The notes under the pieces were generated by a model. The model saw only the letters and a program-made list of their open reading frames with translations, was not told the origin of the DNA and did no database searches. This document shows positions 6,549 through 48,993 of a stretch of DNA of 60,000 nucleotides, one piece after another. The position numbers and the translations under genes are program-made. The first letter of the stretch is position 1; the number at the start of each line of letters is the position of its first letter. This stretch comes from Strigamia acuminata (lineage: Eukaryota; Arthropoda; Chilopoda; Geophilomorpha; Linotaeniidae), in NCBI GenBank assembly GCA_949358305.1, contig OX442318.1, forward strand, positions 3,646,501 through 3,706,500, written 5' to 3'.

Positions 6549-6946
6549 ATGAGAGCAGTTGTGCTGATTCTTTGCGTCATTTTGTGTGGCCCGACTGAAG
6601 CGGGGAAAGAGTAAGTTTGAACCGATAAAAGACGTGATAGATGATGGGCGAATTATTACATTTTAGGCCTCGCAGACATACTGGGACGGTCAAGTGGTTT
6701 AATTCAGACAAGGGATTTGGTTTCATCACACCGGACGATGGCGGATTTGACGTTTTTGTTCATTATTCGGAGTAATTTTTTGACTAAAAATTCAACAAAA
6801 TGTGACTAGATTAAGTTTAATTGATTGGGTTTTATTTCAGTGTTGGTGGCAGTGGTTACGGCGATTTGACTAAAGGGCAGAAAGTTGGATTCTCTGTAAT
6901 CCAGGGCCAGAAAGGTCCACAAGCTATTAATGTGGTACCGAGTTAA
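6549..6946 (+). CDS. Secreted cold-shock-domain protein, copy A
   Basis: Ninety residues from exons 6549-6610, 6667-6771 and 6841-6946, both introns phase 2. Residues 1-18 form a signal peptide ([18 protein letters not shown]) with predicted cleavage after Ala18. The remaining ~70 residues are one cold-shock domain: TGTVKWFN with Trp31, RNP1 KGFGFI (36-41), RNP2 VFVHY (50-54), then GQKVGFSV and KGPQAINVV. Cold-shock domains bind single-stranded RNA or DNA through the RNP1/RNP2 aromatics, which are all present. The mature length matches bacterial Csp proteins, but the second intron splits the Asp codon after RNP2 exactly as in the CARHSP1-like gene at 48.1-49.0 kb. AATAAA lies near 7067. Secretion and extracellular nucleic-acid binding are inferred. 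Confidence 0.85.
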
Positions 6947-7486
6947 GTTTTGATTGCCCAATTTGTGATGTTTGGCGATTTAAAAATATCAATTTGTTTT
7001 GATTGTACGGGCACATTGTGATTTTTTAAACACGTATTTCTTTTTTTGGTGAATTGGATATTAAATGAATAAAATGTGGCGTATTTAATATATTTATGTA
7101 AAGCTTGATCTGGATCTTGAGTTTATCAACTTGGTAAATGTGTTGAAGAACATTGCAGAGATATTTAATGAGATAAAAGTGCATTTCGCATTCTAGATGC
7201 ATCGGTTGTTAGATGAACCTTGTTTTTAGTCATTTATGCGGGGAAAAGATGCGTCTTAAAGGTCATGGGAAGAGAAAAATAAAAATTGAGGAGAAGATTG
7301 TTTGTGTCATTATTAGACCAAATCCATTGTTTATACGTGTTCAATTGTTTCGAGATTGTTATATCGTTCGTTTAAACGTTTAAAAATTCTCAAATGTCCT
7401 CCATTTTTAGTTTTCGAAAGTTTCCAAAAGTTGCCGTTGGTGGCGCTATTTATGACGTCATCGGCGACAAACAAGCAGCTTTTTAG

Positions 7487-7663
7487 CATGGGCTTGGCTT
7501 CATTTAAGAGCTACGAAAATTTATTATTAGTTCTTTTGAACCTATAAACTTGCAACAAATAGCAAATTGGAATATTTACTGAATATTAAAATCCCAATAA
7601 CCTAACAGTGTTGTCAAATTTGGAAAAAAAATTTCGTAGCTCTTAAATGAAGCCAAGCCCATG
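7487..7663. repeat. Short foldback: about 33-bp arms, about 105-bp spacer
   Basis: The left arm begins CATGGGCTTGGCTTCATTTA at 7487. Its reverse complement, ending GAAGCCAAGCCCATG, lies at 7628-7663. The two arms differ at one position. It may be a tiny non-autonomous element or a cruciform-forming sequence. Confidence 0.75.
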
Positions 7664-7939
7664 TGTGTGTCAAATGTCCAATATAGAATTATCCATCGTG
7701 TATGAATCGGAGAATAAAGCATTGAAAACTTTGACGTTTTCCTGACAAGTCTTGTTTTACATACAGTACATTCAATCTTCAAAAGCCGAATTAACTTATT
7801 TATGCGCAATGACTTCTCCAAACAGGACATTACGATTTTTACGTCATATCTCTGAGAAGTCAACTTGAAAAGAGGATTACGATTACGTGAAATTGATATC
7901 ACTCCTTTGACTTCTTCTGCACCTGCTATTGTTAGTTGC

Positions 7940-8928: not shown

Positions 8929-9326
8929 TCATGTCTTAATTTTCACATTAATAGCTTGTGGGCCTTTCTGGCCCTGTATTACAGAGAATCCAACTTTCTG
9001 CCCTTCAGTCAAATAACGGTAACCACTGCCACCAATCCTGAAATAAAACGCAATCAATTAAACCATAAGTCACATTTTGTTGAATTTTTACTCAAAAAAT
9101 TACTCCGAATAATGAACAAAAACGTCAAGTCCGCCATCGTCCGGTGTGATAAAACCAAATCCCTTTTCTGAATTAAACCACTTGACCGTCCCAGTACGTT
9201 TGCCAGACCTAAAATGTAATAATTCTCCCATCATCTATCACGTCTTTTATCGGTTCAAACTTACTCTTTCCCCGCTTCAGTCGGGCCACACAAAATGACG
9301 CAAAGAATCAGCACAACTGCTCTCAT
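8929..9326 (-). CDS. Secreted cold-shock-domain protein, copy B
   Basis: Exons 9326-9265, 9208-9104 and 9037-8929. Exon 1 gives the same signal peptide as copy A. The CSD has [20 protein letters not shown] and DVFVHYSE, then [20 protein letters not shown] and KGPQAINV. The last residues are VKIKT instead of VVPS in copy A; that ending belongs to copies D and E, so the 3' end looks recombinant. Both introns are phase 2 and the middle exon is 105 nt. It is convergent with copy A. No disabling change was seen, so it is probably functional; expression is unknown. Confidence 0.82.
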
Positions 9327-10328: not shown

Positions 10329-10390
10329 ATGAGAGCAGTTGTGCTGATTCTTCGTGTAATATTGAGTGGCCCGACAGAAGCGGAGGAAGA
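10329..10390 (+). pseudogene. Secreted CSD copy C: orphan signal-peptide exon
   Basis: Matches exon 1 of copies A and B (MRAVVLIL, then VILSGPTEAE) behind the conserved 5' block. The donor is altered (GAGTACCAG instead of GAGTAAGTTTG) and no CSD exon follows in the expected place. It is the mirror partner of copy B across the palindrome. Broken. Confidence 0.75.
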
Positions 10391-10673
10391 GTACCAGTTT
10401 GAACCGATAAAAGACGTGATAGATGATGGTTGATGGGAGAATTATTACATATTAGGAACATATTAGGAACACCTATATGAAAAGATGGTTATTATTATTA
10501 TTAAGAACAGCATGGCCATGCTGAAAAGTATTTTGTGTCAGAAACAGGAAAAGAAGAGTAAGGTATGTTGAAACGAAAGATAGCTTCCCTACAGTATAGC
10601 AGAATAAAACAATTTGACTTATGTGACAGCTGACAGGTGTTATTTTTGATGATTCTTCTTGGTTCTTTGTTAG

Positions 10674-10784
10674 AAAAACTACACTTTGAAGACAGAGGAG
10701 GAAGTTGAGTTTGATACTGTCAACACACCAGACGGCGCATTTGCTGAAAATGTTACAATTCTAACAAAACCAGATAGTAAATGA
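10674..10784 (+). pseudogene. Orphan C-terminal CSD exon of a different subtype
   Basis: A good acceptor (TTCTTTGTTAG) precedes an open stretch reading NYTLKTEEEVEFDTVNT, then AFAENVTILTKPDSK and stop. The pattern L..EE.VEFD.V......A.NV is the second half of a cold-shock domain. It resembles ordinary eukaryotic CSDs more than copies A to F do. It needs a phase-1 donor, whereas the family uses phase 2, and no matching exon lies upstream. Probably a relic. Confidence 0.45.
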
Positions 10785-11280
10785 ATACACAAATTATGTT
10801 CGGTAATTGAAAGAAATCGATTGTATTAAAAAAAGAATTGTTTTTTTTGGTGGATGGGATTAATTAAATTTGACACTTGGAACAAGAATTTTTTACTCGG
10901 TGCAAGTACTTTGCATTTGATGCAAGAATTGTTCATTTGGTGCAAGGATTTTTCACTTGGAGCAAAAATTTTTTATTTGGACCAAAATGTCTGAGTTTGG
11001 AGAATTTGGAGCAGAATTGGAACAGAATTTGGAGCCTTGTACAAGATACATAAGTGCACCAATTAATTCTCGGAGTGGCTGATCTATCAATTTCTCTCTT
11101 ATTGGCTAACTTGGGTGTGTTATCAGGAATGACGAATGAATGACAGGTCAGTGTAAAGTCAGGCTAACAAGTGTTTATTCAAATCATCCGATCCGGATCA
11201 ATTGCTTATTTTAGCGTTAAATCTTCCACCGATTGTAATTTTTCGCATAATTGACGATTTCGCATGCCGACAAGGACGAC

Positions 11281-11477
11281 TACTCCAATATCCCCGATAT
11301 ATTCTCCACCTTGCCCAGATCAATAACAACAGTTTTCTGCTTAATACGCTTTGTCATTGATAATAATAAATTCTCATCCTTATAAACTATCATTAAACCA
11401 TCGACATAAACTCCTAATATTAATATTTGATCTTTGTCCCTGTACAAATAAACACAAGGACCCACAAGGCCCCACAA
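11281..11477 (-). pseudogene. Copia-type reverse transcriptase fragment, unit 1
   Basis: Translates to YLYRDKDQILILGVYVDG followed by LMIV and, further on, LGKVENISGILE. This is the YVDD catalytic block and the downstream segment of a Ty1/copia RT. Here the second Asp of YVDD is Gly. No flanking pol domains or LTRs remain. It is a different family from the intact element at 28.3-33.2 kb. Confidence 0.8.
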
Positions 11478-11499
11478 ACATCGTTCTAAAAGTTGTCTT

Positions 11500-12060
11500 T
11501 ATCGGTGAATCCACTCAGCGAGTAAAATAGAAGACATTTTTCAAAAAGTATATCGCCCGTGTGTGATAAGCAATGTCGGCGGTATTCAATACGATATTGG
11601 TTCGTTTATTCGTCTCCAGGTGGCAGGAGCGACCAGAGACAGTTTGCGGTAAGAAAACAGTGGCGCCATCTATGTTTCCAAGTCGCTATTAATTAGGAGT
11701 TGAAATTTCTCTGCCTTGTGAGTGGTGGAAAGGACCCGATTTATCGCCCGTGGAAGGAATACAATACGGTATTGTTACATTAACACATAGCTCAGTTTCA
11801 ACAGGTTTGGCACGCCTGCCATAAATTCGGATACGTTTATTGGATTTGCAGTTTGGTTTCAACAAGTTTAGCACGATGGTAGGTAAATTCGGATACATTA
11901 AAGTCGTTTCTTTGACTCGCAGCTCAGTTGCAAACAGGAAGTGTTTTTTGGATATTCAGTGCAATTTTAGCTTGCATTTGTGCGTGGGCGATAAATTCGG
12001 ATGCGTTTTATGGATTTGCAGTAGATTTTCAACGAGTTCAGCCAGCAATAAGGATTCAAT
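11500..12060. repeat. Decayed interspersed repeat followed by 55-60-bp tandem units, unit 1
   Basis: The first part is the GGCGCCATCTATG repeat. From about 11765 units appear with the order TTTCAACAAGTTTAGCACG, GGTAAATTCGGATAC, and TTTATTGGATTTGCAG. The same unit family is at 19500-19870 and 42590-42840, and reverse-complemented at 21345-21580. A 125-aa open frame across it is a by-product of the repeats. Confidence 0.75.
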
Positions 12061-12566
12061 GGAATTTAGTATTTGTGACCTGAATATTTTAATATCACAT
12101 GTTGTTGCGATCCTCCGGGCTTTCCACTCTAAAAACAAATACTTACCTGGTTTGGAGTGGTTCGCAATTGAGATGCCGTTTATAGGCCTTATACTCGGTT
12201 GCCTGTGTGGTGTCTAGGGGTAATTTTATGAAAGGAAAACGACAGTTTGAATTGAATAAAATACAAAAATGTTTTATTTGTGCGAAAAGTTACAAATATA
12301 ATTATTAGAAATATAATTAATGAATTTACTAGGAAGTTATGAATTTAGTAGCTAAAACTAGGGAGAGAAAAAGAGAAGAGGAATGGGAAATGAGTCAAGT
12401 GAAACGGTTATGCTCACTTGAAACAAAGGAAAAAGGCGCCAACAACGACGGTTGATCGTTGGGCGCGAGTATTTGGCGCGCAACAAACGGCCGCTTGTTG
12501 CGCTCGGAAAATGGCGAGTCGGACTCGCCTGAGAAATATTATTTCTCGTTGAAGAACAGCTACTTT

Positions 12567-12610
12567 TATCTGTAAACTCCGGAGTAAAGCTCGCAGGTGG
12601 TTTACAGATA
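12567..12610 (-). other. LTR hairpin 1 with 22-nt conserved loop
   Basis: Perfect 11-bp stem TATCTGTAAAC/GTTTACAGATA. The loop (12578-12599, TCCGGAGTAAAGC then TCGCAGGTG) is identical to that of hairpin 2 at 12746-12785. Confidence 0.8.
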
Positions 12611-12745
12611 GCGGCGACGATTCTCTACGAGAAGTTTTGCCGTTGACGACGACGATGAGAGTACCAGAGTAAACTCGATGGCGCTCTCACAATAATCAAA
12701 CAACGAGCAGGGAACAAATTTCCTTCGCTCGTTCGATGGCGATGA

Positions 12746-12785
12746 ACAGTGAACTCCGGAGTAAAGCTCGCAGGTGGTTCACTGT
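12746..12785 (-). other. LTR hairpin 2, same loop on a compensated stem
   Basis: Perfect 9-bp stem ACAGTGAAC/GTTCACTGT around the same 22-nt loop (12755-12776). Compared with hairpin 1, three stem base pairs differ and each change is matched on the opposite strand. This is the signature of selection on base pairing. Confidence 0.8.
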
Positions 12786-13147
12786 CTTCTCACGATGGTT
12801 GACGGCGACGGGTTGCTCGATCGACGGAGGCGAATCACGGAACAAGTCAACGCGACTCGACGGCGGCGGGTGAGCAGAGTTTCTCGGGCGTTACCCGAAA
12901 TTCGTATTCTGTACGCAAATGTGGCTGGTTCCACCAAAATCTATTCAGTGGAAACAGCAATGTCTCTTAACTCACCAAAACGTGTAAACCCGGTCAGCAC
13001 TTGGAATCCTTTTGTTTGAAGTTCTTCAGTGATGATCATTTGGGTTGTTGTTGTTGGTGTGTCAGTGTCAAGAGTGGGCCAAACCGCCAAAATTTGGGGT
13101 TTTATGCACTCTCGAAATCTGCGCACGAAATATGTGCAGATTACTAA

Positions 13148-13309
13148 TTTTGGCACAACAAAGGATCTTGTTGCGCCAAAAGCCGTTATTATTGCATCAT
13201 AACCGTTGGCTATGGGAAGGGTGGCGTGCGCCAGACACGCTTCAGATATGCGCAGCGGATGCTGCGCAGACGTCTTAATTTAGTGAGACAAAGGATTTTG
13301 CCTCACTAA
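13148..13309 (-). other. Cluster of LTR hairpins with GGAT-containing loops
   Basis: Three stems: 13148-13181 (14 bp, one A·C mismatch, loop AGGATC), 13249-13268 (8 bp perfect, TGCGCAGC/GCTGCGCA, loop GGAT) and 13280-13309 (13 bp, one A·C mismatch, loop GGAT). An A·C mismatch on the plus strand is a G·U pair in RNA read from the minus strand, which is the LTR sense strand. Confidence 0.75.
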
Positions 13310-13690
13310 GCGGTTAATTAACGCCTCACCCCTCACAATATTGGGGTGAGCCGTGCTAGGGGAGGATTTTCTCCCCTAATTATGTAATTGTTTGGCTTGT
13401 GCCAAACACAAATATTACAGAATAAAATGTAAATACAACTTCTTTCGTGGTGACTCTTTTTATTAAATAAAACACATTAAAATTGAATAAAAGTGGCTCA
13501 GGGTCACCACAATGTAAACATTTGTTTGCATCCAAAAATATACGTTGAAACGGGAAAAGAAGAGTAAATCATCACCACAATACAGAATTGCGCAATTTAA
13601 ACACATTTAGCAAGTCTTTCGTCATTATTGTGAAAATTGGTATACTACACAAGCTGTGAGTTGCGAAATTTTCAGTTTTCAATCTACGAC

Positions 13691-14101
13691 ATGATGAGAG
13701 CAGTTGCGCTGATTCTTTGTGTAATATTGAGTGGCCAGACAGAAGCGGGCGAAAAGTAAGTTTGAACCGATGAAAGACGTGATAGATGATGGGCGAATCA
13801 TTACATTTTAGGTCTGGCAAACGTACTGGAACGGTCAAGTGGTTTAATTCAGAAAAGGGATTTGGTTTCATCACACCGGACGATGGCGGAGCTGATGTTT
13901 TTGTTCATTACAAGGAGTAATTTTTTTTACTAAAAATTCAACAAAATGTGACTAGATTAAGTTCTGGTTTTATTGATTGCGTTTTATTTCAGCATTAGTG
14001 GCAGTGGGTACCGTAATTTGGATGAAGGGCAGAAAGTTGAATTCTATGTAAACCAGGGTCCAAAAAGCATACATGCTTCTGATGTGGAAATTAAGACATG
14101 A
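13691..14101 (+). CDS. Secreted cold-shock-domain protein, copy D
   Basis: Exons 13691-13755, 13812-13916 and 13993-14101, introns phase 2. The signal peptide reads [20 protein letters not shown]. The CSD has [27 protein letters not shown], then [20 protein letters not shown] and the tail VEIKT. RNP1 and RNP2 are intact. It belongs with copy E to a second subfamily ([12 protein letters not shown]) distinct from A, B and F. It lies 180 bp downstream of the solo LTR, whose insertion interrupts the conserved 5' block upstream at ATGT/AAACATTTG. ATG 13691 was chosen; the next codon is also ATG. Confidence 0.82.
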
Positions 14102-15070
14102 TCGCCCAATTTGTGATGTTTGGCGATTTAAAAATATCAATTTGTTTTGATTCTATGGGCAAATTGTATTTTTTTGAAAACGAACGTATTTGGTTTTTTT
14201 TTGGTGAATTGGATATTAAATGAATAAAATGTGGCTTATTTAATATACTTATGTGAAGGTTGATATTAATCTGGAGTTCATCAACTTGGTAAATGTGTTG
14301 AAGAACTTTGCAGAGATATTAATGAGATAAAAGTGCATTTTGTTAGATATTATGTGTTACGGCTGCCAATATAAGTACGTCACCCGGAGGCGCCAATGTG
14401 TCCATCGACATGTTGGTTAAGGGGGTTTATTGTCCATCGACCTGGACTTTGAGGGCAACAATGAGAGAGGGGGAGGGGCACCTCCACATCTGGACCATAC
14501 GAGAACCAATCAACCAATAGTGCAACGACCCATATACAGGGTGAGTCAAAAGTCTGGAAACACCTTTTTTTCTTGAAAATGACCGAAGATATATCAATTC
14601 TATTGATGTAGGCGCATAGGAAGTCGATGGTGGGCTATCGAATGAGAGAATAAAGCATTGAAAACTTTGACGTTAACCTGACAAGTCTTATTTCACATAC
14701 AGTACATCCGATCTTCAAAAGCCGAATTAATTTATTCATCTGAAATGACTTCTTCAAATAAGACTTTACGATATCTCTGAGAAGTCAACTTGAAAAATTC
14801 AAATAAGAGGATTGTGATTAAGTGTCACTAATCTCTTCAGCACCTGCTATTGCCCCAAAAATAAGACCATGGTGTTGTATTCGTCAGCCAATATCATGTA
14901 AGTTTGTCGTAAAAGTAAAATTGCTATTTACTCTATTTGTATTCATTACGCCGATTAAAAAAACAAAAAAGATATATAAATTAACAAAAACAACGATATA
15001 CTGTATGTTTTAAATATTTTTATACCAATCCGAATATAACACCATGAAGTATATTCGAATATAACACCAT
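14102..15070. repeat. Downstream repeats of copy D, unit 1
   Basis: Copy D 3' UTR (AATAAA near 14224), the shared TTGGTAAATGTGTTGAAGAA block, a GC-richer patch at 14390-14530 (CACCCGGAGGCGCCAATGTG), and a motif GGTGAGTCAAAAGTCTGGAA at 14540 that resembles the end of a mariner-like transposon. The 14822-15013 open frame is not protein-like. Nothing coding is supported. Confidence 0.55.
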
Positions 15071-15075
15071 GGTGC

Positions 15076-15699
15076 TGTTTAGAGTAGGAAATAAACCTTG
15101 TTAGAGTAGGCTTACTTAATATTAAACCTAAACAGAACTGTTGTCATGGAGATTTAACCCCTTTTTGAGAATTGCTTGAAATTACTGTTATTTCTTACAT
15201 ACTGTGTTTATTATCCTCTTTTATTGTAGTTTATTGCTTTGTGGTTGTTTAATTCCCATTTTCCTTGTTATTTGTCTGATTTCTGTTATATTTTCTATGT
15301 TCTGCTATTCCCATGTTAAACCTACTTTAAGCCTTTTTCTGGTCACTATCATTGTTAGTAATAATGCTTTGCCATATCATTAAGTGCTGTTATTATTCTA
15401 AGTTTTCTTTGTTTATGAATTGTGCATTATTAAATCAGACTAAACTTGATTTCCAAAGAGAGCACTTGTGTTTCTTTCTCTCTCTTCCCCTGAGGCCCTG
15501 GACCCTTAGCTCCCAAGACCCTCTATGGGTCAGTTGTGTCAGTAACTCTCCTTTTCATTTCCTCCGAGGTCGCTTCTGGGCAACTACGTCACCTGTGGTG
15601 GCGGGTTAGCCCAGTGCTCGCGTTGGTAGAACCAGCCTCACCTCCCCTCTTCCTCTACCACCTCAAGCAGACCAGGACAAGGCGTGACCATCCGCCACA
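15076..15699. mobile_element. Solo LTR, second family, 624 bp, unit 1
   Basis: Starts TGTTTAGAGTAGG and ends CCGCCACA, flanked by a perfect 5-bp duplication GGTGC (15071-15075 and 15700-15704). The empty site would be ACACCATGGTGC, a near-palindrome that continues on both sides (TTCGAATATAACACCATGG against AGTGGTGTTATATTCGAA). The 3' third is GC-rich. No internal region remains. Its second copy, at 27942, is split by the copia element. Confidence 0.8.
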
Positions 15700-15704
15700 G
15701 GTGC

Positions 15705-16491
15705 TTTAGCTGAAGTGGTGTTATATTCGAATTTTTCAACAATGTTTCACAACTTACAGTTTTCAAAGAAACTCGAATACAACACTACAGTGTTATTTTC
15801 GGGAGAAGACGGTAGTTGCTACCACATGTTGTAGGAAGCCATCTTTTTAGATCAGTTTGGCTTGTGTCATGTTCAATCAAGAATTCTCTTCATTAGGATT
15901 TAATGAGAACAGAATTTGTCCTTTCAAGATAGAATTCATCTACTAATTATACTCTATGGCCAATGGCCTTTTAGCAAGTGGGATGGGCCTCGGTCTGTAA
16001 AATACTGCTTGAAATTGTTTTGAAGCTTGTTTTATTCTGCACACAATACTTAAGGTTGGGGACAAAATGGTAAAACACCACTATTTAACCAATAGATACT
16101 TCGGTAACACCCATCTTAAAACATCTCAAGTAACACGAATGATAGAATTTCTATTGCATCGATATAACAAATCTATCCACCCTCGATGTAGACCATCTAC
16201 ACAGATGCATTGGGATTCTATGTAGAAATTCTGTCGAAAATGGAAATTAAACATAGACCGCTCTATCTGAAATAGATATAGACCGATTATATAGATGCGA
16301 AGAAATTCTATGTGGAAATTCTATCGAAAAAGAAAATTAAACATAGACCGCTCTATTTCGTCCTACATAGACCGCTCTATTTCGTCCTACATAGACCTTT
16401 AATGCGGATCGACAAAATGGTAAAACACCCCTTTTTAACCTTAAAGCCATTAGTTATTTCGGTAACACCTATCTGAAAAGATGGTTATACT
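15705..16491. repeat. Mosaic of decayed repeats, unit 1
   Basis: Includes the CTGCACCTGC-type block, the ACAAAATGGTAAAACACC block seen also near 8145 and 16410, and a small tandem array at about 16345-16405 (CCGCTCTATTTCGTCCTACA repeated). No gene is supported. Confidence 0.55.
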
Positions 16492-16927
16492 CTTTCCACA
16501 CTCAAAAGGCCCCCTCTGAAGCTAGGCTCCCATTGGCCAAGCCATTTCACTGGTGTACTGATACAAAAAGAAGACCCAAAACACCCGAAATGCATTATAA
16601 AGACATACAGATATAAATAGAAGGACAGACATTGCAATCGATTTGTTATTGTTTGGAAATTGTCTACTCTCCAGACATAGCAAGCAATAAAACTGAAATA
16701 AATGCATTTTATTTAAAAACAACATAAAATTTTTTTTTCAAAATAGAAAACATATTCTATTACACAATAACATTAAAAGAACATTACTTCAACCATATGA
16801 TTCAGGAAAAGACTCAAAATCAAAGGGAACTACTTTTCCTCATAGCAGTAGTCCAACTGGAGTTCTGAGTGATCAGACTAGGCCAATGGGAGCCAAGCTT
16901 CAGAGGGGGCCTTTTGAGTGTGGAAAG
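16492..16927. mobile_element. Foldback MITE with 47-bp terminal inverted repeats, unit 1
   Basis: The left end, CTTTCCACACTCAAAAGGCC onward (16492-16538), and the right end (16881-16927) are inverted copies differing at one base. The 436-bp element encodes only an unconvincing 67-aa frame. A fragment of a relative lies near 45960-46020. The superfamily is unclear. Confidence 0.85.
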
Positions 16928-17501
16928 AATATAGTGTGTTTTATTAAGAACAGCATGGCTGAAAAGTATTTTGGGTCAGAAACAGGAAAAGAAGAGTAAA
17001 GGTATGTTGAAACGAAGAATAGCTTGCCTTCAATAGCAGAATAAAACATTCTGATATATGTGACTGACAGGTGTTATTTTTGTTGATTGTTCCTGTTTCT
17101 TTGTTAAGTCTCCTGCTTTAAACTGGGAATGTTTTAAAACGTGTCAAAAGGGGTGTACTTCAGAATGGGCCCAAAACTTGGTTAGTCACCAAACAAACCC
17201 TCCTGAGTTGTAAAATGACACTCAAAAGTGTCCGAAAATAAGTTATCTGGTTGAAAACGCCGCTTTTAGCCATCGTGGTTAGCGTGTTTTATTAAGAACA
17301 GCATGGCTGAAAGGTATTTTGTGTCAGAAACAGGAAAAGAAGAGTAAGGAAGGATAGCTTCCCTACAGTAGAAAAATTAAACAGACTTATGTGACAGCTG
17401 ACAGGTGTTATTTTTGTTGATTGTTCTTGGTTCTTTGTTAGTTCTTCTACTTAAGCTGGGAATGTTTGAAAACGTGTCAAAAGTTTTCAAACTACTGCAC
17501 G
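16928..17501 (+). promoter_or_regulatory. Repeated 5' region of CSD copy E
   Basis: Two imperfect tandem copies (about 16935-17160 and 17280-17500) of GTGTTTTATTAAGAACAGCA, CAGAAACAGGAAAAGAAGAG, CAGCTGACAGGTGTTATTTT and CTGGGAATGTTT, ending at the copy E start. More remnants lie at 10490-10670 and 18390-18500. It likely contains the copy E promoter. Confidence 0.5.
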
Positions 17502-17918
17502 ATGATAATGTGGACAGCAGTTGGGCTGATTCTTTGTGCAATATTGAGTGGCCAGGCAGAGGCGGGGGAAGAGTAAGTTTAAACCGATAAAAGACGTGAT
17601 AGATGATGGGCGAATTATTACATTTTAGGTCTGGCAAACGTACTGGGACGGTCAAGTGGTTTAATCCAGAAAAGGGATTTGGTTTCATCACACCGGACGA
17701 TGGCGGACCTGATGTTTTTGTTCTTCACAAGGAGTAATTTTTTTGACTAAAAATTCAACAAAATGTGACTAGATCAAGTTCTGGTTTTATTAATTGGGTT
17801 TTATTTCAGCATTAGTGGCAGTGGGTACCGTAATTTGGCTGAAGGGCAGAAAGTTGAATTCTTTGTAAACCAGGGTGCAAAACGCATAGAAGCTTCTGAT
17901 GTGAAAATTAAGACATGA
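17502..17918 (+). CDS. Secreted cold-shock-domain protein, copy E
   Basis: Exons 17502-17572, 17629-17733 and 17810-17918, introns phase 2. The N-terminus [17 protein letters not shown] with QAEAG looks like a signal peptide; an in-frame ATG at 17508 is an alternative start. The CSD keeps [23 protein letters not shown]2 reads VFVLHKD instead of VFVHYKD, so the conserved His is replaced by Leu and the next aromatic by His. The C-terminal half is [20 protein letters not shown] and ends VKIKT. The RNP2 change may weaken or alter nucleic-acid binding. Confidence 0.8.
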
Positions 17919-19994: not shown

Positions 19995-19998
19995 GTAC

Positions 19999-20958: not shown

Positions 20959-20997
20959 GTACAAGTATAAAAAAAGTAGAATTCGTTCAATCTCTAA

Positions 20998-36565: not shown

Positions 36566-36876
36566 GGGGCCGTCCATAAATTACGTAACGCTCCAAGGGG
36601 GGTGAGGGGGTTTCAGATTTTGTTACGGGTCATTAGTAAGGGAGAGGGGGAGTTCTCAAGAATGTTACGGTCCGTGAAAATTTTTTTTTAATGTTTTAAA
36701 ATTGAAAATATACGCAGTTTTGAGACTGATTTTTGAAAATTTTTGGGGGAGTGATTTCAGTTTTATTACGTAATTAGGGGGATGGGGGTTTGGGAATATG
36801 TTACGGCCTTGTTACAGAGGGGAGGAGGGGGTCTAAAATGCCCAAAATTGGCGTTACGTAATTTATGGACGGCTCC
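36566..36876. mobile_element. MITE with GGGGCCGTCCATAAATTACG ends, unit 2
   Basis: Counterpart of 18737-19047. Confidence 0.85.
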
Positions 36877-37068
36877 ATAGTTGAGGAATATACAAACAAT
36901 TTGAACAAATATTCCGCAACACCTTCGCTAGTGAAACCAAAAGGCGAGGGGAGGACGAGCAAAAATTTAATCAAAAGATAATTGAAAGCAGTTAAAATGG
37001 AATCTCAAATTAATTGCTCCAAATGTACAAACGATTGAAAATAATTCCATTTGCTACACAAACATCGT

Positions 37069-37823
37069 TCTAAAAGTTGTCTTTATCGGTGGCGCCACAC
37101 TGCGAGTAAAAAAGAATACATTTTTTTAAAAGTAGATCGCCTATATGTGATGATAAGCGGTATTCAGTACGATATTGGTTCATTTAGTCGTCCCCAGATG
37201 GGAGGAGCGACCAGAGACAGTTTGCGGTAAGAAAACAGTGGCGCCATCTATGTTTCCAAGTCGCTATTAATTAGGAGTTGAAATTTCTCTGCCTTGTGAA
37301 TGTAGGAAAGGACCCGATTTATCTCCCGTGGAAGGAATACAATACGGATTTGCAGTAGATTTTCAACGAGTTTTGCACGGTCAGCGATAAATTTGCATTC
37401 ATTTTGTGGGTTTTCAACGAGTTTATCACGGCAATAAATTCGGATACGTTTTATGAATTTCAGTGGAATTTCAACAAATTTAGCACACTGAGCGATAAAT
37501 TGGGATAAATTTTGTGGATTTTCAACGAGTTTTGCACGGTGGGCCATAAATTCGGATACATTTATTGAATCGATAGCGAAGTTTTAGTTAGTTTTACACG
37601 TAGGCGGTAAATTCGGATATAATTTGTGGATGCAAGTAAATTTTTAACAAATTTTGCACGGTTGGCGATAAATTCCGATTCATTTTGACGTTAACCTGAA
37701 AGGTCTTGTGGAGTGTTTTACACTCCATTTCTTTCTGTTGTTAATTTGTGACGCGCGTGAAGCACGTCGCGTTCCCGCGACGTTGCGAGGAGGGTTTATA
37801 GTGGAGAAAGTTCTTTTTCTTTT
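37069..37823. repeat. Decayed repeat and 55-60-bp tandem array, unit 2
   Basis: Counterpart of 19240-19994. Confidence 0.7.
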
Positions 37824-37827
37824 GTAC

Positions 37828-38787
37828 TGTGGTGATCTCAATTTATTTCACCAACTTAGAAGATAAAATTAATTGTCTTCTAATTAATTTGACTGTGGCA
37901 CACGCCAAGTCAGATCATGTGACCGAGGGGAAAAATCCTCTCGAGGCACATATCACCTCAGGTTGTCCGGGGGTGAAAACGGTTATTAACCGTTATGGTG
38001 CAATATGGTGTAATAATCCCCTGTTGCACCAGTTTTAGCTAATTGCTCAGATTATCTGCGCAATATTGAAGCGTGCCGGGCTCGCGCCCTAGCTTCAATC
38101 GGGACTCTTGACTAAATACACAAACCACAAACATCACTGCTTTTCTACTCCTGACAAAAAGTATTGATAGTGGACCGTGTATTCCAAGTTTCACCAGCTT
38201 GCTTTGTAATAACTTACAAAGCCAGCATTCCTGCTTGAATTAGCCGCAGCTAATTACAGCCATCGAGAAAAAGAAGTTCCCGTGTCGCATGAACCATCGC
38301 CGTCGCAGCAGCGCGAACTGTTGCCACCGCCATCAAACGAGAGACGGAAGCCTGCCCGAACGTGAACCACGCCCCGCGCCGTTGTACGTCGTGCAGTAGA
38401 CTCGCCGTGAACCATCATCTTAGGATCATCGTACGTGTGAGTGACGAGAGGAAAATAGCGGAAGCCATTTTCCTAACAACTTGTGTTGTCAAGCGCAATC
38501 GCCGCGCTTTTTAGCTCGTAACAGTCGTTACGAGCCCTTCCTTTGTATTTCCATTGTTTCGCGACTTTGTCGCATATTATTCTCATTTTCTCGTATTATT
38601 ACTAGTCATTGTAATTAAAGTGTAATAAAAAGTATTCATTTGAATTGATAAACTGTCTTTTTATTTCTTTTCCATAAAATTAACCCTAGATAATTTTGGC
38701 CGCCGATTGTAAGTCTTTTATAGCATTCACCTGCGGTTTCTGCTTACTTTATTAGAATTTAAGTAGATAAAAACCCGGATCACAGCA
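37828..38787 (+). mobile_element. Solo LTR, hairpin-rich family, 960 bp, unit 2
   Basis: Counterpart of 19999-20958 with the GTAC duplications conserved. Confidence 0.82.
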
Positions 38788-38826
38788 GTACAAGTATAAA
38801 AAAAGTAGAATTCGTTCAATCTCTAA

Positions 38827-39069
38827 TAACGACCTGGTTTGGTGATAGGATTTGATTACATCACACCAGCACTGAAGATGCATATTTTTATTTTACAACA
38901 TAAAATCAAAAATTCAAGAAAATATGACTGGATTATGTTGTTTTATTAATTGGATGTTATTTCAGGCACTCTTGGTATAAAGCACTACTCTTTGAAGGTA
39001 GAAGATGTAGTTGAAAAGACCACATTAAACACAAAAGGACGAATTTATGCCTGTACAAGCTGGCCTATA
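38827..39069 (+). pseudogene. Decayed CSD gene, unit 2
   Basis: Counterpart of 20998-21240; same stops and frameshift. Confidence 0.6.
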
Positions 39070-39616
39070 ATATCAGGTATTGGCAATATCAAGCAATACC
39101 GTATTGCTTTGATATTCAATGTTCAGGATGTTATTGCTGGTGTAATGTATCGCCCACGCACAAATGCAAACTAAAACTACTCTGTAGATGTGAAAACGCA
39201 TCCGAATTTATCTCTCACGCTGTACAAACTCAAGCTGAAACTGCACTGAATGTCTAAAAAACACTTCCTGTTTGCAACTGAGCTGCGAGTCAAAGAAACG
39301 ACTTTAACGTATCCGAATTTATCGCTCATGAATCATGATCAAACCTGGGTTCAATCTGTATACTAAATCCAAAAAACGTATTCGAATTTATGGCAGGTGT
39401 GCCAAACCTGTTGAAACTGAGTTCAATATGGATTGGATATGGTTATAATGTTCAAAGTCTTGTTTAAAAGGCAACCTCATAAGGAAGGGTTTGGCTTTTG
39501 CCTTGCAAGAGCTATAACCCAAGAAATTTAAGCGACTGTCATACATTATGAGCACCAATAATAATTCTAGCCTTCTTTAACTTGCTTTCCATTTCATTTG
39601 GCAAGACAAATCTCAT
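39070..39616. repeat. Inverted 55-60-bp repeat family, unit 2
   Basis: Counterpart of 21241-21787. Confidence 0.6.
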
Positions 39617-39850
39617 TTATTTACAGATTTTTCTAAGGTAACCATCTTGACATCGTGAATTAGATTTTGGGTGACCAGACTGTTTCACATTTTTAACTGT
39701 TCCTGTGCATTCTAATTTCTTTATTACGTATTGAATGGGTTTTTTACTTATTCTATGTTGATTTGAAATGGTTTTCTGGGATATTTTGTTCTTGTGCAGC
39801 AAGATAATTCGGTATTTCAGGTCATCTGAGAGTTCCTTGGTTTTGGCCAT
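39617..39850 (-). pseudogene. Tc1-family transposase N-terminal fragment, unit 2
   Basis: Identical in translation to 21788-22021; DNA-binding part only. Confidence 0.82.
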
Positions 39851-40489
39851 GATGGCAGTGAAATGAAGTCATCAAATGATGGTTCAGTTATGAATATTGT
39901 TGACATCATTCAGATAAGCAATGAAATTTGTATAAAAATTGTATTGTTACATCTCATTCTGTGACAAAAGTGGTCTGGTCTAATATTTTTGTCCAGAGAA
40001 CAAGGTGGTCTAATAATTTTGACCAGAGTGAGATTTTTTCAAATCAACTTTTTTGGGGTTTAATTTGCTATTTTTATAAGTTTATTTAGTTTGTTTTGTA
40101 GAGAGAAAACAGGTCTTTCCAGTGCATTTTTATTTTTGTATCTATCATTTACCACTCCAAAGTTATTGGGTGAAGAATAAAAATTTCTGTTGATTTGCTG
40201 GTGTGGTCTAATACTTTTGGCCATGGGTTGTACATTAAATTCTTGTTTATATCTTATTAATGAAATTAATAATATTAAAATAATGATTGTCAGTTTGAGT
40301 TACAATCAAATTTTGAATAAACAATGACATGGGACTAATGTCTGCCCGCTAAAGGTCCGGCTGACGTACCCCTCTTCGATTTGAAACTAAACCTTATTCT
40401 TTTGGTCATATGAGTGTTTGTTGATCTATAATTTTATTTCAATTGCGTTTGATTAGTTATAAAGTGTATTTGTTTGAACAGCTCACTTA
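39851..40489. repeat. Right part of Tc1 remnant and spacer, unit 2
   Basis: Counterpart of 22022-22660. Confidence 0.6.
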
Positions 40490-41455
40490 GGGGCCATCCA
40501 TAAATTACGTAACGCACCAAGAGGGGGGAGGGGGTTTTAAATTTTGTCATGGGTCATTACTAATGGAGAGGGGGGGTTTCAAATTTTGTTACATTCCATG
40601 TAAAAAAAAATTTAAAATTTAAAATATTAAAATTTAATTATTTTTTATATGATTTTTGGAAAATTTGGGGGAGGGGGGATTTCAGTTTGTTATGGTCCTG
40701 ACTCTAAACAGTAGAAATTTTTGAAAAATTTGTGCGCATTTTGCACCCTTCCCTTTATTTTACCCAATGATTAGAAATAGTTTTAATTTCTTCAAATTAT
40801 TTTATTTTCTTCAAATTCTAAATTTCTTATTTTATTTTATTTATTCTCACCTTTTATCTTTAATTTTGCCTGGTTTTGATCACTCCTTCCAGACATTCAT
40901 GAGAATTCTGCCCATAAATTGATACATTCGCGCTTTGCTCATTTGAATATCTCGCTCTGAACACCTGTTTTTGACCAATTCCTCTTGGGAATAGACTTGG
41001 CCTGGAACATGTGATCAGAGGTGACTTGTTTAACCCAATCACTAAAAATAATCAGAATAATTTTTGCCTTTGACGCAGTCACATCTCCTATCTCAATTGG
41101 GGGATTTCAAAGTGCGATTTATATGCGTTGCAACGCAATAGGCCATTGTGCAGCCTGAATTCTGAATATCCTGCACACAAAAATATTAAATTTCACAAAC
41201 AGACGCTGTCTTTACGAAGCTACCCCATGGTAACGTATTAAGAGTTGCGGCGCCTGTGGACCCACAATCTTTTGGTTACTACAATCCCTGGAAAGCCAAA
41301 ATTTCCGACACTATTGTTTAAAGTCGAATACAACGTGACAAGCTTTGTTACGTAATTAGTGCGTAGGGGGTTCGGGAATATGTTACGACCATATTACAGA
41401 GGGAGGGAGGGAGTCTAAAAATCCCAAATTTTGGTTAAGTAATTTATGGACGCCC
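40490..41455. mobile_element. Interrupted MITE, unit 2
   Basis: Counterpart of 22661-23626, with the same unidentified insert. Confidence 0.65.
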
Positions 41456-41989
41456 TTTTATTCTGAATTGTAATAGCTTAGCCTTAAAATAATTCCAGAC
41501 AGTCTTTATACTGTCTGATTTGTCTGATTAAATTATTTATGTGAAATGATTTCTCCATACAGGACAGAATTTTTTGGTGGATGGGATCAATAAAATTTGA
41601 CACTTGGAACAAGAATTTTTTATTTGGTGCAAGTACTTTGCATTTGATGCAAGAATTGTTCATTTTGGTGCAAGGATTTTTCACTTGGAGCAAGAATTTT
41701 TTATTTGGACCAAAATGTCTGAGTTTGGAGAATTTGGAGCAGAATTGGAACAGAATTTGGAACCTTGTGCAAGATACGTAAGTGCACCAATTAATTCTCG
41801 GAGTGGCTGATCTATCAATTTTTTCCCTATTGGCTAACTTGGGTGTGTTATCAGGAATGACGAATGAATGACAGGTCAGTGTAAAGTCAGGCTAACAAGT
41901 GTTTATTCAAATCATCCGAACCGTAGCAATTGCTTATTTTAGCGTTAAATCTTCCACCGATTGTAATTTTTGGCATAATTGACGATTTC

Positions 41990-42177
41990 GCATGCCGACA
42001 AGGACGACTACTCCAATGATCAATAACAACAGTTTTCAGCTTAATACGCTTTGTCATTGATAATAATAAATTCTCATCCTTAAAAACTATCATTAAATCA
42101 TCGACATAAACTCCTAATATTAATATTTGATCTTTGTCCCTGTACAAATAAACACAAGGACCCACAAGGCCCCACAA
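41990..42177 (-). pseudogene. Copia-type RT fragment, third copy
   Basis: Encodes YLYRDKDQILILGVYVDD and LMIVFKDENLLLSMTKRI. The YVDD motif is intact and the 32 bp lost in unit 2 are present, so it best preserves the ancestral fragment. It lacks about 30 bp near 42015 (the CCCC.ATATATTCTCC part). Confidence 0.8.
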
Positions 42178-42948
42178 ACATCGTTCTAAAAATTGTCTTT
42201 ATCGGTAAATCCACTCGGCGAGTAAAATAGAAGACATTTTTTAAAAAGTATATCGCCCATGTGTGATGATAAGCAATGTCGGCGGCATTCAATACGATAT
42301 TGGTTCGTTTATTCGTCTTCAGATGGCAGGAGCGACCAGAGACAGTTTGCGGTAAGAAAACAGTGACGCCATCTATGTTTCCAAGTTGCTATTAATTAGA
42401 AGTTGACATTGCTCTGACTTGTGAGTGGTGGAAAAGACCCGATTTATCGCCCGTGGAAAGAATTCCCTACGGTATTGTTACATTAACACGTGAACACATC
42501 TCAGTTTTAACAGGTTTGGCACACCTGCCATAAATTCGAATACGTTTTTTGGATTTAGTGTACAGATTGAACCCAGTTTTGATCAAGACCGATAAATTCG
42601 GATACGTTTATTGGATTTGCAGATGAGTTTCAACAAGTTTTGCTCGGTGGATGGTAATTTCGGATGCGTTTTTTGGACGGTCAGCGATAAAATTGCATTC
42701 ATTTTGTGGGTTTTCAACAAATTTTGCAAGGTGGGCGATAAATTCGGATTCATTTTGTGGATTTGCAGTGCAACTTCCACAAGTGTTGCACACAGGCGAT
42801 AAATTGGGATATATTTTGTGGATTTTAAGAGGTAGAGGGGTAAAGATTCTTGTGCTTTGGAGGGTTTATAGTGGAGAAAGTTCTTTTTCTTTTGGTCCAA
42901 AAACCATTAAAATCCTTTGGATAAGAAAAGTAGAATTCGTTCAATCTC

Positions 42949-44110: not shown

Positions 44111-44505
44111 TTAACTAGGCACCACATTAGTAGCTTGTGGGCCTTTATGGCTCTTTATTACAGAGAATTTAACTTTCTGCCCTTCAATCAAATCACGGTA
44201 ACCACTGCCACCAATCCTGAAATAAAACGCAATCAATTAAACCATAAGTCACATTTTGTTGAATTTTTACTCAAAAAATTACTCCGAATAATGAACAAAA
44301 ACGTCAAGTCCGCCATCGTCCGGTGTGATAAAACCAAATCCCTTTTCTGAATTAAACCACTTGACCGTCCCAGTACGTTTGCCAGACCTAAAATGTAATA
44401 ATTCACCCATCATCTATCGCGTCTTTTATCGGTTCAAACTTACTCTTTCCCCGCTTCAGTCGGGCCACACAAAATTACGCAAAGAATTAGCACAACTGCT
44501 CTCAT
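44111..44505 (-). CDS. Secreted cold-shock-domain protein, copy F
   Basis: Exons 44505-44444, 44387-44283 and 44216-44111, introns phase 2. It shares the signal peptide of copies A and B ([18 protein letters not shown]). The CSD has [28 protein letters not shown], then [20 protein letters not shown] and [15 protein letters not shown]1 and RNP2 are intact and splice sites are good. It sits head to head with the broken copy G, with part of the palindrome family between them (44560-44720). Confidence 0.82.
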
Positions 44506-44925: not shown

Positions 44926-45031
44926 GATTGGTGGCAGTGGTTACAAAAATGTAATCGAAGGGCAGAAAGTTGAATTCTCTGTAGTAAACAGCCACAAAGG
45001 CCCACAAGCTATTAATGTGGTACCTTATTAA
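44926..45031 (+). pseudogene. Secreted CSD copy G: last exon only
   Basis: Behind an intact intron end (GGTTTTATTTCAG) it reads IGGSGYKNVIEGQKVEFSVV then [14 protein letters not shown] and stop. Upstream, the conserved 5' block (to TTTAACACATTTAGCAAC near 44845) runs straight into intron-2 sequence, so exons 1 and 2 were deleted in one event. Confidence 0.78.
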
Positions 45032-45630: not shown

Positions 45631-45636
45631 ATCCAT

Positions 45637-46805
45637 CGTGTATGAATCGGAGAATAAAGCATTGAAAACTTTGACGTTTTCCTGACAAGTCTTGTTTCAC
45701 ATACAGTACATTCAATCTTCAAAAGCCGAATTAACTTATTCATGTAAAATGACTTCTCCAAACAGGATATTACGATTTTTACGTCATATCTCTGAGAAGT
45801 CAACTTGAAAAGAGGATTACGATTACGTGAAATTTTATTGGTTGCTTTGTCTGGAAAGCAAACAATTTTAAAATTTTGACTGTCACCTAGGCAATCGATT
45901 ACAATGTCTGTACATTGTAATGCATTTCTGGTGTTTCGGTCTATATTTTTGGATCACTACTCCAGTGATACGGCTCGGCCAATGGGAGAAGGCCACCCTT
46001 TTGAGTTGAACAAGAGTGTAGAGTGTTGTGCCTTTCAGGGTTTGTAGAGAAGGTCCTCTATATCGTTTGGTTTTTTAAATAAAAAAATCCGTGGTCAGGT
46101 TGTTGAGATATTGGGGTTTGAAGTTGTGGCACCAGATTTGGAAATTTAGTACAAGTCTTTTTTGTGCCATATTCAAATGCTTGCTGCTCGAAAACGAAGA
46201 TGAGTAGAGACTTGTGCTGTTCACGGTTTGTTTAGGAGAAAGTCATCTATCCTTTCGTGTAAAAACCATTAAAATCCGTGGTAAAAAAAAATTGGGATTT
46301 GTTCTATCTGTAGTTTGGGCGAATGTGAATGTGGTGCCAACTTCAGCCTGGCTTGCCCTCTTCGATTTGAAACTAAACCTTATTCTTTTGGTCATATTAG
46401 TATTTAATCTATAATTTATATTTCAATAGTGTTTGATTAGTTATAAAGTGTATTTGTTTGAACAGCTCACTTAGGGGCCGTCCATAAATTACACACCAAG
46501 AGAAGGGAGGGATTATGCTTATCCGACTTTGTGTAAGCCACGTAATAATATCTATTTCCAGAATAATTAATAAAGAAAGAGTTGCTAAATATGCTAAAAT
46601 TGCTCAATTTTGTATTGTGGTTAAACAATCGGCTCTGTTCTCACATGATTTACTCTTCTTTTCCTATAATATCAGGAATTGCTTGATATTCAATGTCCAG
46701 GATGTTATTGCTGGTGTAATCTGACATTTTATTACTTGTTTAATTATACACGCACTCAATTGTGATGCAGATCAAAGGTAATTATCTATTTTAAATCTAT
46801 TTTTA
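45637..46805. repeat. Decayed repeats between copies G and H
   Basis: Includes remnants of the foldback MITE end (45960-46020), two relatives of the GGAGAAAGT..AAAACCATTAAAATCC block (46050-46080 and 46230-46285), a truncated GGGGCCGTCCATAAATTAC end (46475), and a reverse-oriented remnant of the CSD 5' block (46555-46660). No gene is supported. Confidence 0.6.
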
Positions 46806-47271
46806 TTATATTCTGTTATCAAAATCATTTTCTAACACATTTTTCACCACTTCCACGTGACATGTGTGCAAAGTCTTATTTTCGCTGCATATTTCAAAAC
46901 GTATTTCACCAACCACATTGGGATCGATCATATTTCCCATTCTGAAATAAATGAAAATAATTAATTAGAAAGATAAATGTCCCTCCAGTGACCACCACCA
47001 TCTTTATTCACTTCATTTGGTACAGAAAAACCTCTTTTCCTCCTGAATTTGGTTCTATGTAACCAAATCCATTCGGTTTAAAGAAATATTTCACCGGTTC
47101 TGTTTGAGTTGGATTTCTAGAAAACGAAAAGAAAAATTATTCTCAAATATTTTTTTAAAAAAAATGTTTTTACTTAGAAACTCACACTGTGGGTGCTGAC
47201 GTGTCTATTGGAGCACCCATGATTGCATAACTAAGATATACTGTCCAAGAAATCAAAAAAACTGCTTTCAT
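46806..47271 (-). CDS. Divergent secreted cold-shock-domain protein, copy H
   Basis: Exons 47271-47186, 47116-47012 and 46941-46806; 108 residues; introns phase 2 and middle exon 105 nt as in the family. The N-terminus MKAVFLISWTVYLSYAIMGA is a signal peptide. The CSD is degenerate: TEPVKYFFKPNGFGYIEP keeps an RNP1-like NGFGYI, RNP2 reads EVFLYQM, and the last exon has VVGEIRFEICSE plus two new Cys (ICSEN, HTCHV) absent from the other copies. AATAAA-like signals follow. It may be an older branch between CARHSP1 and copies A to F. Expression is unknown. Confidence 0.7.
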
Positions 47272-48095
47272 GGTGAACTATTTTCGCTTGGTTGTCGAAC
47301 ATAAGTTAATGGAGTTTGAGTTTTACGACGAGTTTTATGTTTTTGTTGATTCCATTGATTCATTCGAGGGTCATTTAATGTTTCAAGAATTTATATTTAT
47401 ATTTATATTATTATATTTGTTCGATGAATTTTTATTTTTAAATGTTTTAAATTTTGAATTTAGCGGTTTTGAATTAGGAGCGCCGTAATGCTATCTAGCG
47501 ACAAGCGATGATACTTAATTTGTGAGTATTTTATTTAGGGTTACTTTCGTTTTCTGGAAGCGTCGTAGGATTCAAGATGGACGCCATTGAACAAAGGTAA
47601 TTTTATGCTTTTGAGTTTATATTTTTTTGGCAATTCTAAGTGTTATTTTAAAAATTATTTATAAACATTCCTTTATCTTATCTTTAATGAAGAGATAAAA
47701 TGTCCTGCTAGGATGATGAAATTGATATTTTAATTTTATGACTTTGTCAGCTTTCAGTCACGTGTTTGTGTTTATATAATAAATATAAATGAGAGTTGTG
47801 ATTTTTATCATAAACAAAAATCATTTTGATTTTATTTAAAAACAAATAAATCTATTTTAATCAACAAATACATTTACGCAAATCAACAATTCTATTATAT
47901 TTATATATTAAATTCTTGATTTTATATTTTATATATCTTATTAATTTCATTAATAATATTAAAATAATGATTGTCAGTTTGAGTTACAATCAAATTTTGA
48001 ATAAATCTTTTTTTGGTTTTCGTTTAACGAAGATGGTAAAACAGGCGAAAATAGAAGGAATAAAATTTGTTCCGGGGTAAATAATTTCAAAAATG
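47272..48095. repeat. Spacer with a single arm of the palindrome family
   Basis: 47700-48020 matches one arm of the 9.5-10.25-kb palindrome (TTTTATGACTTTGTCAGCTT, CGTGTTTGTGTTTATATA, GTCAGTTTGAGTTACAATC). 47270-47488 is AT-rich and open in one frame but not protein-like. A CCAT-centred GC-richer patch at 47560-47600 (AGATGGACGCCATTGAACAA) was noted without a gene. Confidence 0.55.
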
Positions 48096-48993
48096 TCACT
48101 GAAGGTTGGCAGAATCGTCCCATTTTTGGTGTTTGGCAGGACTTAATTGGACGATTTCCACATGCGTGGCTTGAAAACCCTCGTTTTTGGGCGGCATCGG
48201 GCACAATTTGTATCGCACTTCGTCACCTTCCAACGGCACCACTTCACCGTCAATGCTAAAATAGAAATTAGAAAATATTTACTAGATTAATACATTTTGA
48301 TTTTATTAGAAACAAAAATACTTATCAGAAATGTCGTTTTTCTACACAAAAAAAGAGTAAAGCAACAAAATATAGAAAAGATACACAGATAAATATAACA
48401 AAAACACCCAAAAATTGAAAATAAATACCAAAAAATGAAATAAAACACCAAAATATAAAATAAAACATCAAAATATAAAATAAAACACCAAAAACCAAAA
48501 TTAAACAGCAAAAATCAAAACAAAATACCAAAAAACCTGAAATAAAACCCCACTAATTCCATCCAAAACAATTACGTAATCCCCGCCATTTTGCTGAGTT
48601 TCCCGTCCCTAATCGCACCAAAATGGCCGCCCAACCAACAAACCTACTCTGAAATATGCACGAAAATATCGATTCCTCCCGAAGTTGGCGTTATAAAACC
48701 GTGTCCCTTCTGTCTGCAAAAATATTTCACCTTCCCAGTCTCTGTCGGATTCCGAAAAGCCCTTTCGCACCTAAAAAAACAAAACAAATTAACATTTTCA
48801 TTCATTTTCCCGCAAATCCCCACACTAAACCTTACGCTGAGTAAGTACGTGTCCTCTTAGTAATAATCGGACTTGGAATGTAAAATAATCGGCCAGAGGA
48901 AGCCGTCGGAGACCGAATAGGCGACGAACTGTGTGTCGATGTCGATGTCGATGTCGATCTTGTTTTCTGTGGCGCATTCATTGGTGAACTCAT
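48096..48993 (-). CDS. CARHSP1/CSDC2-type cold-shock-domain protein
   Basis: Exons 48993-48836, 48770-48648 and 48255-48096 give 146 residues, close to mammalian CARHSP1. The N-terminus is Ser/Thr-rich with a TSTSTSTST run; then come the family's phospho-site segment [14 protein letters not shown], the CSD with [20 protein letters not shown] and DIFVHISD, and the hallmark [20 protein letters not shown], ending in [18 protein letters not shown]1 and CSDC2 are cytosolic RNA-binding proteins that regulate mRNA stability. There is no signal peptide. Both introns are phase 2, and the second splits the Asp codon after HIS, the same place as in the secreted copies. It is the probable parent-type gene of the cluster. 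Confidence 0.9.

Follow-up and report, generated by a model that had tools for sequence, protein, structure and literature searches.

The cold-shock domain is an ancient nucleic-acid-binding fold which is normally found inside the cell. The bacterial proteins of the CspA type (PF00313) consist of a single domain of about 65-70 residues with KGFGFI and VFVH[YF] motifs; they are cytosolic, have no signal peptide and are encoded by intronless genes, and in LIN28 the cold-shock domain is followed by two CCHC zinc knuckles. In this article a stretch of 60,000 nucleotides from the centipede Strigamia acuminata (G000:C6:3646501-3706500, hereafter the window) was analysed, where a cluster of small genes, copies A-F together with a divergent copy H, encodes predicted secreted proteins carrying such a domain. 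On balance we favour the reading that A-F originate from a transferred bacterial CspA-type domain which has become a secreted, locally amplified and fast-changing binder of single-stranded nucleic acids.

Cold-shock domain proteins also occur outside cells, as is predicted for A-F: in PMC6158828 secretion of the Y-box protein YB-1 is described as non-classical and the Golgi as a possible route for DbpA, and the statement of a preliminary description of this DNA that animal cold-shock domain proteins are all intracellular had to be given up. A-F differ from secreted YB-1 in encoding a signal peptide, with almost nothing following the domain. The centipede venom families acquired by horizontal gene transfer offer another comparison, since in PMC7864903 they combine, like A-F, bacterial-type sequence, introns in the centipede genome and paralogous copies; a point of difference is that the mature A-F proteins are cysteine-free. 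The term 'cold shock' has no match in the main text of PMC7864903, nor has 'cold' in PMC6878950, and cold-shock terms are missing from the main text of PMC11170834, of the arthropod chimera study PMC13389597 and of the Strigamia genome paper PMC4244043 (supplements were not searched). No animal cold-shock protein with a signal peptide was recognisable by title or abstract start among the top literature matches, and 'cold shock protein' combined with 'centipede' returned one unrelated paper.

Domain type of copies A-F

The scores of A, B, D, E and F against PF00313 were 83.5-103.4 bits with nearly the whole domain covered (the curated cut-off is 27 bits), too high for a chance match. The five distinct copies reached 102.6-120.2 bits with a Csp profile built from rows found by similarity, 75.5-84.5 bits with a LIN28/Y-box/plant profile and 38.7-48.1 bits with a CARHSP1 profile, and a second Csp profile, composed of phage rows together with CspA and CspB, gave 98.2-118.6 bits. 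When the PDB was searched with A, E. coli CspA obtained 84 bits, YB-1 43, LIN28 up to 35 and CARHSP1 33.5. Judged by these profile scores and PDB bits, the domain of A-F is closer to Csp than to the animal cold-shock families. A-F are 57-63% identical to E. coli CspA (the CspA and CspB sequences of this comparison were entered by hand), 45-49% to LIN28, 41-45% to Y-box and 38-43% to CARHSP1 of the same genome. In a database of 5.8 billion proteins, where only the 7997 candidates with the most shared words were scored and 7989 passed, the best 120 of the 7989 matches were 42-75% identical to the query; most of these rows are unnamed, and the only animal name among them is one flagged contamination.

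Like the Csp proteins, A-F have one domain with KGFGFI and VFVH[YF] motifs, and A and B also carry the bacterial stretch GQKVxFxVxQGxKGPQAxNV; the KGP motif is lost in D and E, and the RNP2 histidine in E. In the alignment A-F have the Csp state at both length differences that separate the Csp and CARHSP1 families, and none of the three CARHSP1-type features of the domain (KGHGF, the PPKNE stretch with its three extra columns, and a loop shorter by two residues) was found in them, nor was the RTRTYS amino-terminus. They end 1-3 residues past the domain match and their mature part has no cysteine, which sets them apart from LIN28. What distinguishes A-F from the cytosolic, intronless Csp proteins is the signal exon with its encoded signal peptide, the two spliceosomal introns of each copy and the location on an animal chromosome.

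For nucleic-acid binding we take the binding residues of B. subtilis CspB to mark the binding face. At the aligned positions A, B, D and F retain K, W, K, F, F, F, H, an aromatic residue and Y, and because these are kept, the four proteins are predicted to bind single strands. In E the RNP2 histidine is replaced by L and weaker binding is expected, and in H several binding positions have changed and binding seems doubtful.

Gene models, signal exons and divergence among the copies

Copy A is located at 6549-6946 on the plus strand (exons 6549-6610, 6667-6771, 6841-6946; 90 aa), B at 8929-9326 on the minus strand (exons 9326-9265, 9208-9104, 9037-8929; 91 aa), D at 13694-14101 on the plus strand (exons 13694-13755, 13812-13916, 13993-14101; 91 aa), E at 17508-17918 on the plus strand (exons 17508-17572, 17629-17733, 17810-17918; 92 aa; RNP2 reads VFVLH) and F at 44111-44505 on the minus strand (exons 44505-44444, 44387-44283, 44216-44111; 90 aa). 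A further in-frame ATG stands one codon upstream of the modelled start in D and two codons upstream in E. Copy H occupies 46806-47271 on the minus strand (exons 47271-47186, 47116-47012, 46941-46806; 108 aa). The eight copies of the preliminary description are all present, but D' (26560-26967, plus strand) and E' (35337-35747, plus strand), which lie within the second copy of a 12.9-kb repeat unit, are letter-identical to D and E and are therefore not independent; in addition there are two fragments, C (10329-10455, plus strand), with the signal exon and intron 1 only, and G (44926-45031, plus strand), which is exon 3 only, inverted and adjoining F.

The structure that had been described for A, B, D, D', E, E', F and H was confirmed: the frames are open, a 105-nt middle exon stands between the signal exon and the last exon, and the two introns follow the GT-AG rule and are in phase 2 in every modelled copy. 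The first exon is longest in H (86 nt), against 65 nt in E and 62 nt in the others (A, B, D, F); the middle exon keeps its 105 nt throughout the six distinct copies, H included, and the last one measures 106-109 nt in A-F but 136 nt in H. The proposed single cold-shock domains were supported too; with the cleavage point placed by eye, the mature proteins, given earlier as about 70 residues, measure 72-73 aa in A-F and 89 aa in H. The coding ends of A-F are frame-shifted among the copies (IKT or VPS), and in all five distinct copies AATAAA or ATTAAA follows 104-122 nt past the stop. Searches of the genome assembly (237.5 Mb; 26 and 23 candidates scored) found the Csp-like A-F family only in this cluster, with matches elsewhere being Y-box, LIN28 or CSDE1-like.

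The proposal that the first exons are secretory was upheld as a prediction. Among 706 ATG starts of the window followed by 22 open codons, the hydrophobicity of the signal cores of A, B and F was reached by none, that of D by two, which are D and D' themselves, and that of E by 17 (7 copies of the family and 10 other starts); the core of H was reached by 66 of the 706, so its signal peptide is weak. No in-frame ATG precedes RNP1 in exon 2 of the six distinct copies, so that the domain cannot be translated unless the signal exon is included. Together with intron 1 this exon has eight matches in the genome, every one inside the cluster, and the mature A-F contain neither cysteine nor an N-glycosylation motif. 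A-F are thus predicted to be secreted proteins.

Divergence was followed in the 10 pairs of the five distinct A-F copies; as exact duplicates, D' and E' entered neither these pairs nor the trees and the rate fit. With the coding part trimmed by its last 14-17 nt where the ends differ, internal coding indels were absent in six of the 10 pairs, and the four pairs with E had one whole codon; introns with the 3' flank showed 1-5 indel events per pair, and 3-12 were counted when the 5' flanks, partly non-homologous in E and F, were included. In the six pairs that set A, B or F against D or E, exon 3 differed at 20-24 of 92 sites, introns and 3' flank at 11-14 of 232-238 sites (P 1.2e-7 to 8.8e-5); within the groups the corresponding values were P 0.0013 for A/F, 0.011 for B/F, 0.18 for A/B and 0.39 for D/E. 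When all exons were compared with all noncoding sites including the 5' flank, B/F and D/E pointed in the opposite direction (P 0.02 and 0.012). These pairwise P values are not mutually independent. In a joint codon/noncoding fit the non-synonymous rate of exon 3 was 3.8 times that of the introns and 3' flank (p 1.5e-6), and the rate of exons 1 and 2 did not differ from noncoding (p 0.15); the fit assumed the tree ((A,(B,F)),(D,E)), while the protein tree prefers (B,(A,F)), and it took neither G nor gene conversion into account. This suggests diversifying selection on exon 3. The three-finger toxin genes with exon segment switching, as PMC2474615 presents them, likewise have three exons and two introns, the introns being alike and parts of the exons different; their fold is another one, and the divergence of A-F is milder and concentrated in exon 3.

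Copy H, the shared intron and the origin of the domain

The gene adjoining the cluster, 48096-48993 on the minus strand (exons 48993-48836, 48770-48648, 48255-48096; 146 aa), is of the CARHSP1/CSDC2 type (CG9705 in Drosophila) and its exon 2 is 123 nt long. Its protein is 86% identical over 99% of the length to T1JBT8 of Strigamia maritima, the next match being at 66%; by this one gene the genome lies near Strigamia, probably among the geophilomorph centipedes. As had been noted before, intron 2 of A-F and H stands at the position of the intron of this gene, splitting the same codon after the RNP2 motif and its serine (HIS-GA|C and HYS-GA|T) in the same phase 2; the comparison was defined from the CARHSP1 gene of the window itself. 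The LIN28 gene of the genome has, as read by eye, a phase-0 intron 5 nt upstream of this position. Furthermore, the signal exon of A resembles that of H in a DNA comparison (score 14, shuffle mean 6.8, 0/500 as good). Intron position and the H-like signal exon preserve a CARHSP1 link for A-F.

Copy H seems to be a separate secreted gene leaning to CARHSP1. Its exon 2 matches that of CARHSP1 at the DNA level (score 31 against a shuffle mean of 8.0, 0/500 as good), it retains NPTxT..VKYF, and in the tree it groups, at the end of a very long branch, with the CARHSP1 of this genome and the Strigamia row (98/94). The CARHSP1 origin claimed in the preliminary description may hold for H and for the intron frame, and is not supported for the domain of A-F. 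Even for H several results tell against it: exon 3 was indistinct from shuffles when compared with CARHSP1 (76/500 as good), the profile scores are close (CARHSP1 28.2, Csp 23.5), and grouping H with A-F is kept at p 0.20 in the approximately unbiased (AU) test. Of the three CARHSP1-type features, H has only the short loop in the alignment. H scored 20.5 bits against PF00313, under the cut-off, yielded no candidate in the protein database search, and in the PDB its best match had an expect value of 0.003, with CARHSP1 ninth (0.025).

For the trees, 56 of 58 rows entered an alignment of 71 columns, including 25 of 80 bacterial loci, 7 of 23 viral-contig loci and 10 of 109 CARHSP1 matches. The 80 bacterial loci are mostly Actinomycetota and are 65-78% identical to a query blended from the copies; no supported sister of A-F appeared among them, and the 23 Csp-like loci of viral contigs showed no link to A-F. 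Horizontal transfer is the most likely source of the A-F domain in our opinion, and a bacterial source is the best guess. According to this proposal the protein would enter the secretory pathway by its signal peptide, which would be cut near TEA|GK, leave the cell as a cysteine-free beta-barrel of 72-73 residues and bind single-stranded RNA or DNA with its KGFGFI/VFVHY face, and the exon-3 half would vary between copies as in an arms-race protein of a gland secretion, venom or haemolymph defence. Given the CARHSP1 leaning of H and its similar signal exon, the Csp-type domain probably either entered a gene frame of the CARHSP1 type whose product was secreted before, or arose next to one.

It should be emphasized that a number of results weigh against a bacterial transfer followed by rapid change. 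A-F are only 45-55% identical to B. subtilis CspB, a range that overlaps that of LIN28. Bacterial DNA has no spliceosomal introns and could not have brought an intron that sits on the same nucleotide and in the same phase as that of CARHSP1; moreover, compared as DNA, A is closer to CARHSP1 than to H in exon 2 (a score of 24 with CARHSP1, where the shuffle mean is 7.8 and 0/500 are as good, and of 16 with H). The 25 bacterial rows of the tree were chosen from loci found by similarity. A branch with 100/100 support has CARHSP1 and H on one side and Csp, A-F, Y-box, LIN28 and one plant row on the other; since Y-box, LIN28 and the plant share that other side, the branch alone does not suffice to group A-F with bacteria. 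Support at the fork of A-F is 81/22, and no donor emerges. The AU test keeps A-F with all CARHSP1 (p 0.43), with all eukaryotic rows (p 0.32), with Y-box (p 0.17), with the LIN28 pair (p 0.11) and with the LIN28 of this genome (p 0.07). As regards the rapid change, the synonymous rate of exon 3 is also raised (2.2x) and equality of the two rates was not rejected (p 0.21), and the keeping of the frame (0-1 coding against 1-5 noncoding indels per pair) may count as modest evidence. A-F with the non-CARHSP1 eukaryotes was kept as well (p 0.43).

The common intron frame, to which the equal length of exon 2 belongs, could reflect either the entry of a Csp-type sequence into a CARHSP1-derived secreted gene like H, or a parallel intron gain, or an old paralogue. 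We estimate that an independent gain, uniform over the 66-codon domain, would land there about once in 200 tries. Published work reports rapid intron gain after transfer in fungi (PMC3584928) and introns in centipede genes of foreign, bacterial origin (PMC7864903). None of the five exon-3 pairs compared among A, B, H and CARHSP1 stood out from shuffles at the DNA level. A mosaic with only one foreign exon was considered as well: exon 2 alone rejects the nesting of A-F with the CARHSP1 of this genome and the Strigamia row (p 0.00034), exon 3 alone, in a quick tree, is borderline (p 0.058), and no clear mosaic follows from these values.

The alternative that survives best is that A-F are an old animal cold-shock paralogue sharing the CARHSP1 intron, whose sequence stayed Csp-like, to which a signal exon was added, and whose representatives elsewhere have disappeared or been missed. 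Plain descent would account for the identical position and phase of the intron and for the signal exon in common with H, and joining A-F to all CARHSP1, kept by the AU test on the full alignment, is kept on exon 2 alone too (p 0.43), and gains 5.2 log units on exon 3 alone. On the other hand, the best 120 matches include no named animal relative, though the database does contain the CARHSP1 orthologue of Strigamia maritima, and the present fast change is ill-suited to a bacterial identity of up to 75% retained since early animals; we regard this alternative as unlikely, though a serious one. It is less likely still that the cluster is decaying and without a product, its copies untranscribed or non-functional. 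The fragments C and G and the frame-shifted ends show turnover, the rate in exons 1 and 2 is like that of introns, and introns with the 3' flank have so few indels per pair when the 5' flank is set aside; nevertheless all five distinct copies keep open frames, splice sites and the AATAAA or ATTAAA signal, and inside the coding part the sole indel is a whole codon in E.

That A-F arose by duplication of the cold-shock domain from the genome's own LIN28 or Y-box gene is improbable. Both placements stay above 5% in the AU test, and a stretch of 15 protein letters is shared with the LIN28 exon, yet the identity to these two domains is well below that to E. coli CspA and to the bacterial rows, and the LIN28 intron differs in phase and position. 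Least probable of all is the view of the preliminary description that A-F were recently copied from the neighbouring CARHSP1 gene and that their domain has grown bacterial-like: the neighbourhood, intron 2, the exon 2 similarity and H as a possible intermediate favour it, but A-F have the Csp state at both length differences, and the AU test rejected A-F with the CARHSP1 of this genome and the Strigamia row (p 0.00018), the same with H added (p 2.6e-5) and A-F with the arthropod CARHSP1 (p 0.0004), so that recent descent from that gene appears to be out under the model used.

Surroundings of the cluster and biological meaning

The first copy of the tandem repeat unit (10843-24713) carries D and E on 12.9 kb and the second (about 23741-42556) carries D' and E'; all differences between them (8 substitutions and 1 indel over 12866 aligned bases) fall within the first ~0.7 kb, and the repeat is either very recent or an assembly artefact. 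Only the second contains a copia-type long terminal repeat retrotransposon (28259-33217, plus strand), with a long open frame, two identical 212-bp terminal repeats and, by eye, the 5-base flanking repeat GTTAT. A repeat of ~170-220 bp (81-86% alike) is present beside fragment C at 10498-10672 and just upstream of E at 16941-17106 and 17280-17483; one version of it reads MAEKYFGSETGKEE before GT. Downstream of fragment C, at 10674-10781 on the plus strand, a short open stretch beginning with KNYTLKTEEEVEFDTVNTPDGAFAENVTIL follows AG, in phase 0 by eye; it matches the C-terminal half of PF00313 with 18.3 bits, under the cut-off (expect value 0.0021), and is perhaps a further divergent cold-shock exon or remnant.

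Two adjoining open frames at 50756-53191 (plus strand) resemble the PI-PLC X domain with 15.9 and 18.4 bits in Pfam, where the cut-off of 23.1 is not reached. Elsewhere in the genome, a Y-box-like cold-shock domain lies in an uninterrupted frame of 253 aa (L001, G000:C11:5088149-5091364) which is possibly a retrocopy; the Y-box exon at C1:16976247 is, unlike L001, apparently split by an intron. The spliced-leader family RF00198 had no match here, and since it had none in the control genomes either, this negative carries no information.

A-F may have a role in venom, in a gland or in immunity. A more specific proposal, which we put forward only tentatively, is that the bacterial domain was grafted onto the exon-intron and signal frame of a host secreted gene derived from CARHSP1, and that the chimera became a diversifying extracellular effector (venom, defensive gland or immunity) with a constant binding face and a switching exon-3 half.

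If the preferred reading is true, this would be an animal family that exports a bacterial-type domain by a signal peptide, with a cytosolic RNA chaperone turned into an extracellular protein. The intron position in common with a host gene makes the acquisition of introns and of an export signal by a foreign sequence testable in related centipedes, and A-F could point to a new kind of extracellular RNA or DNA binder or gland component.

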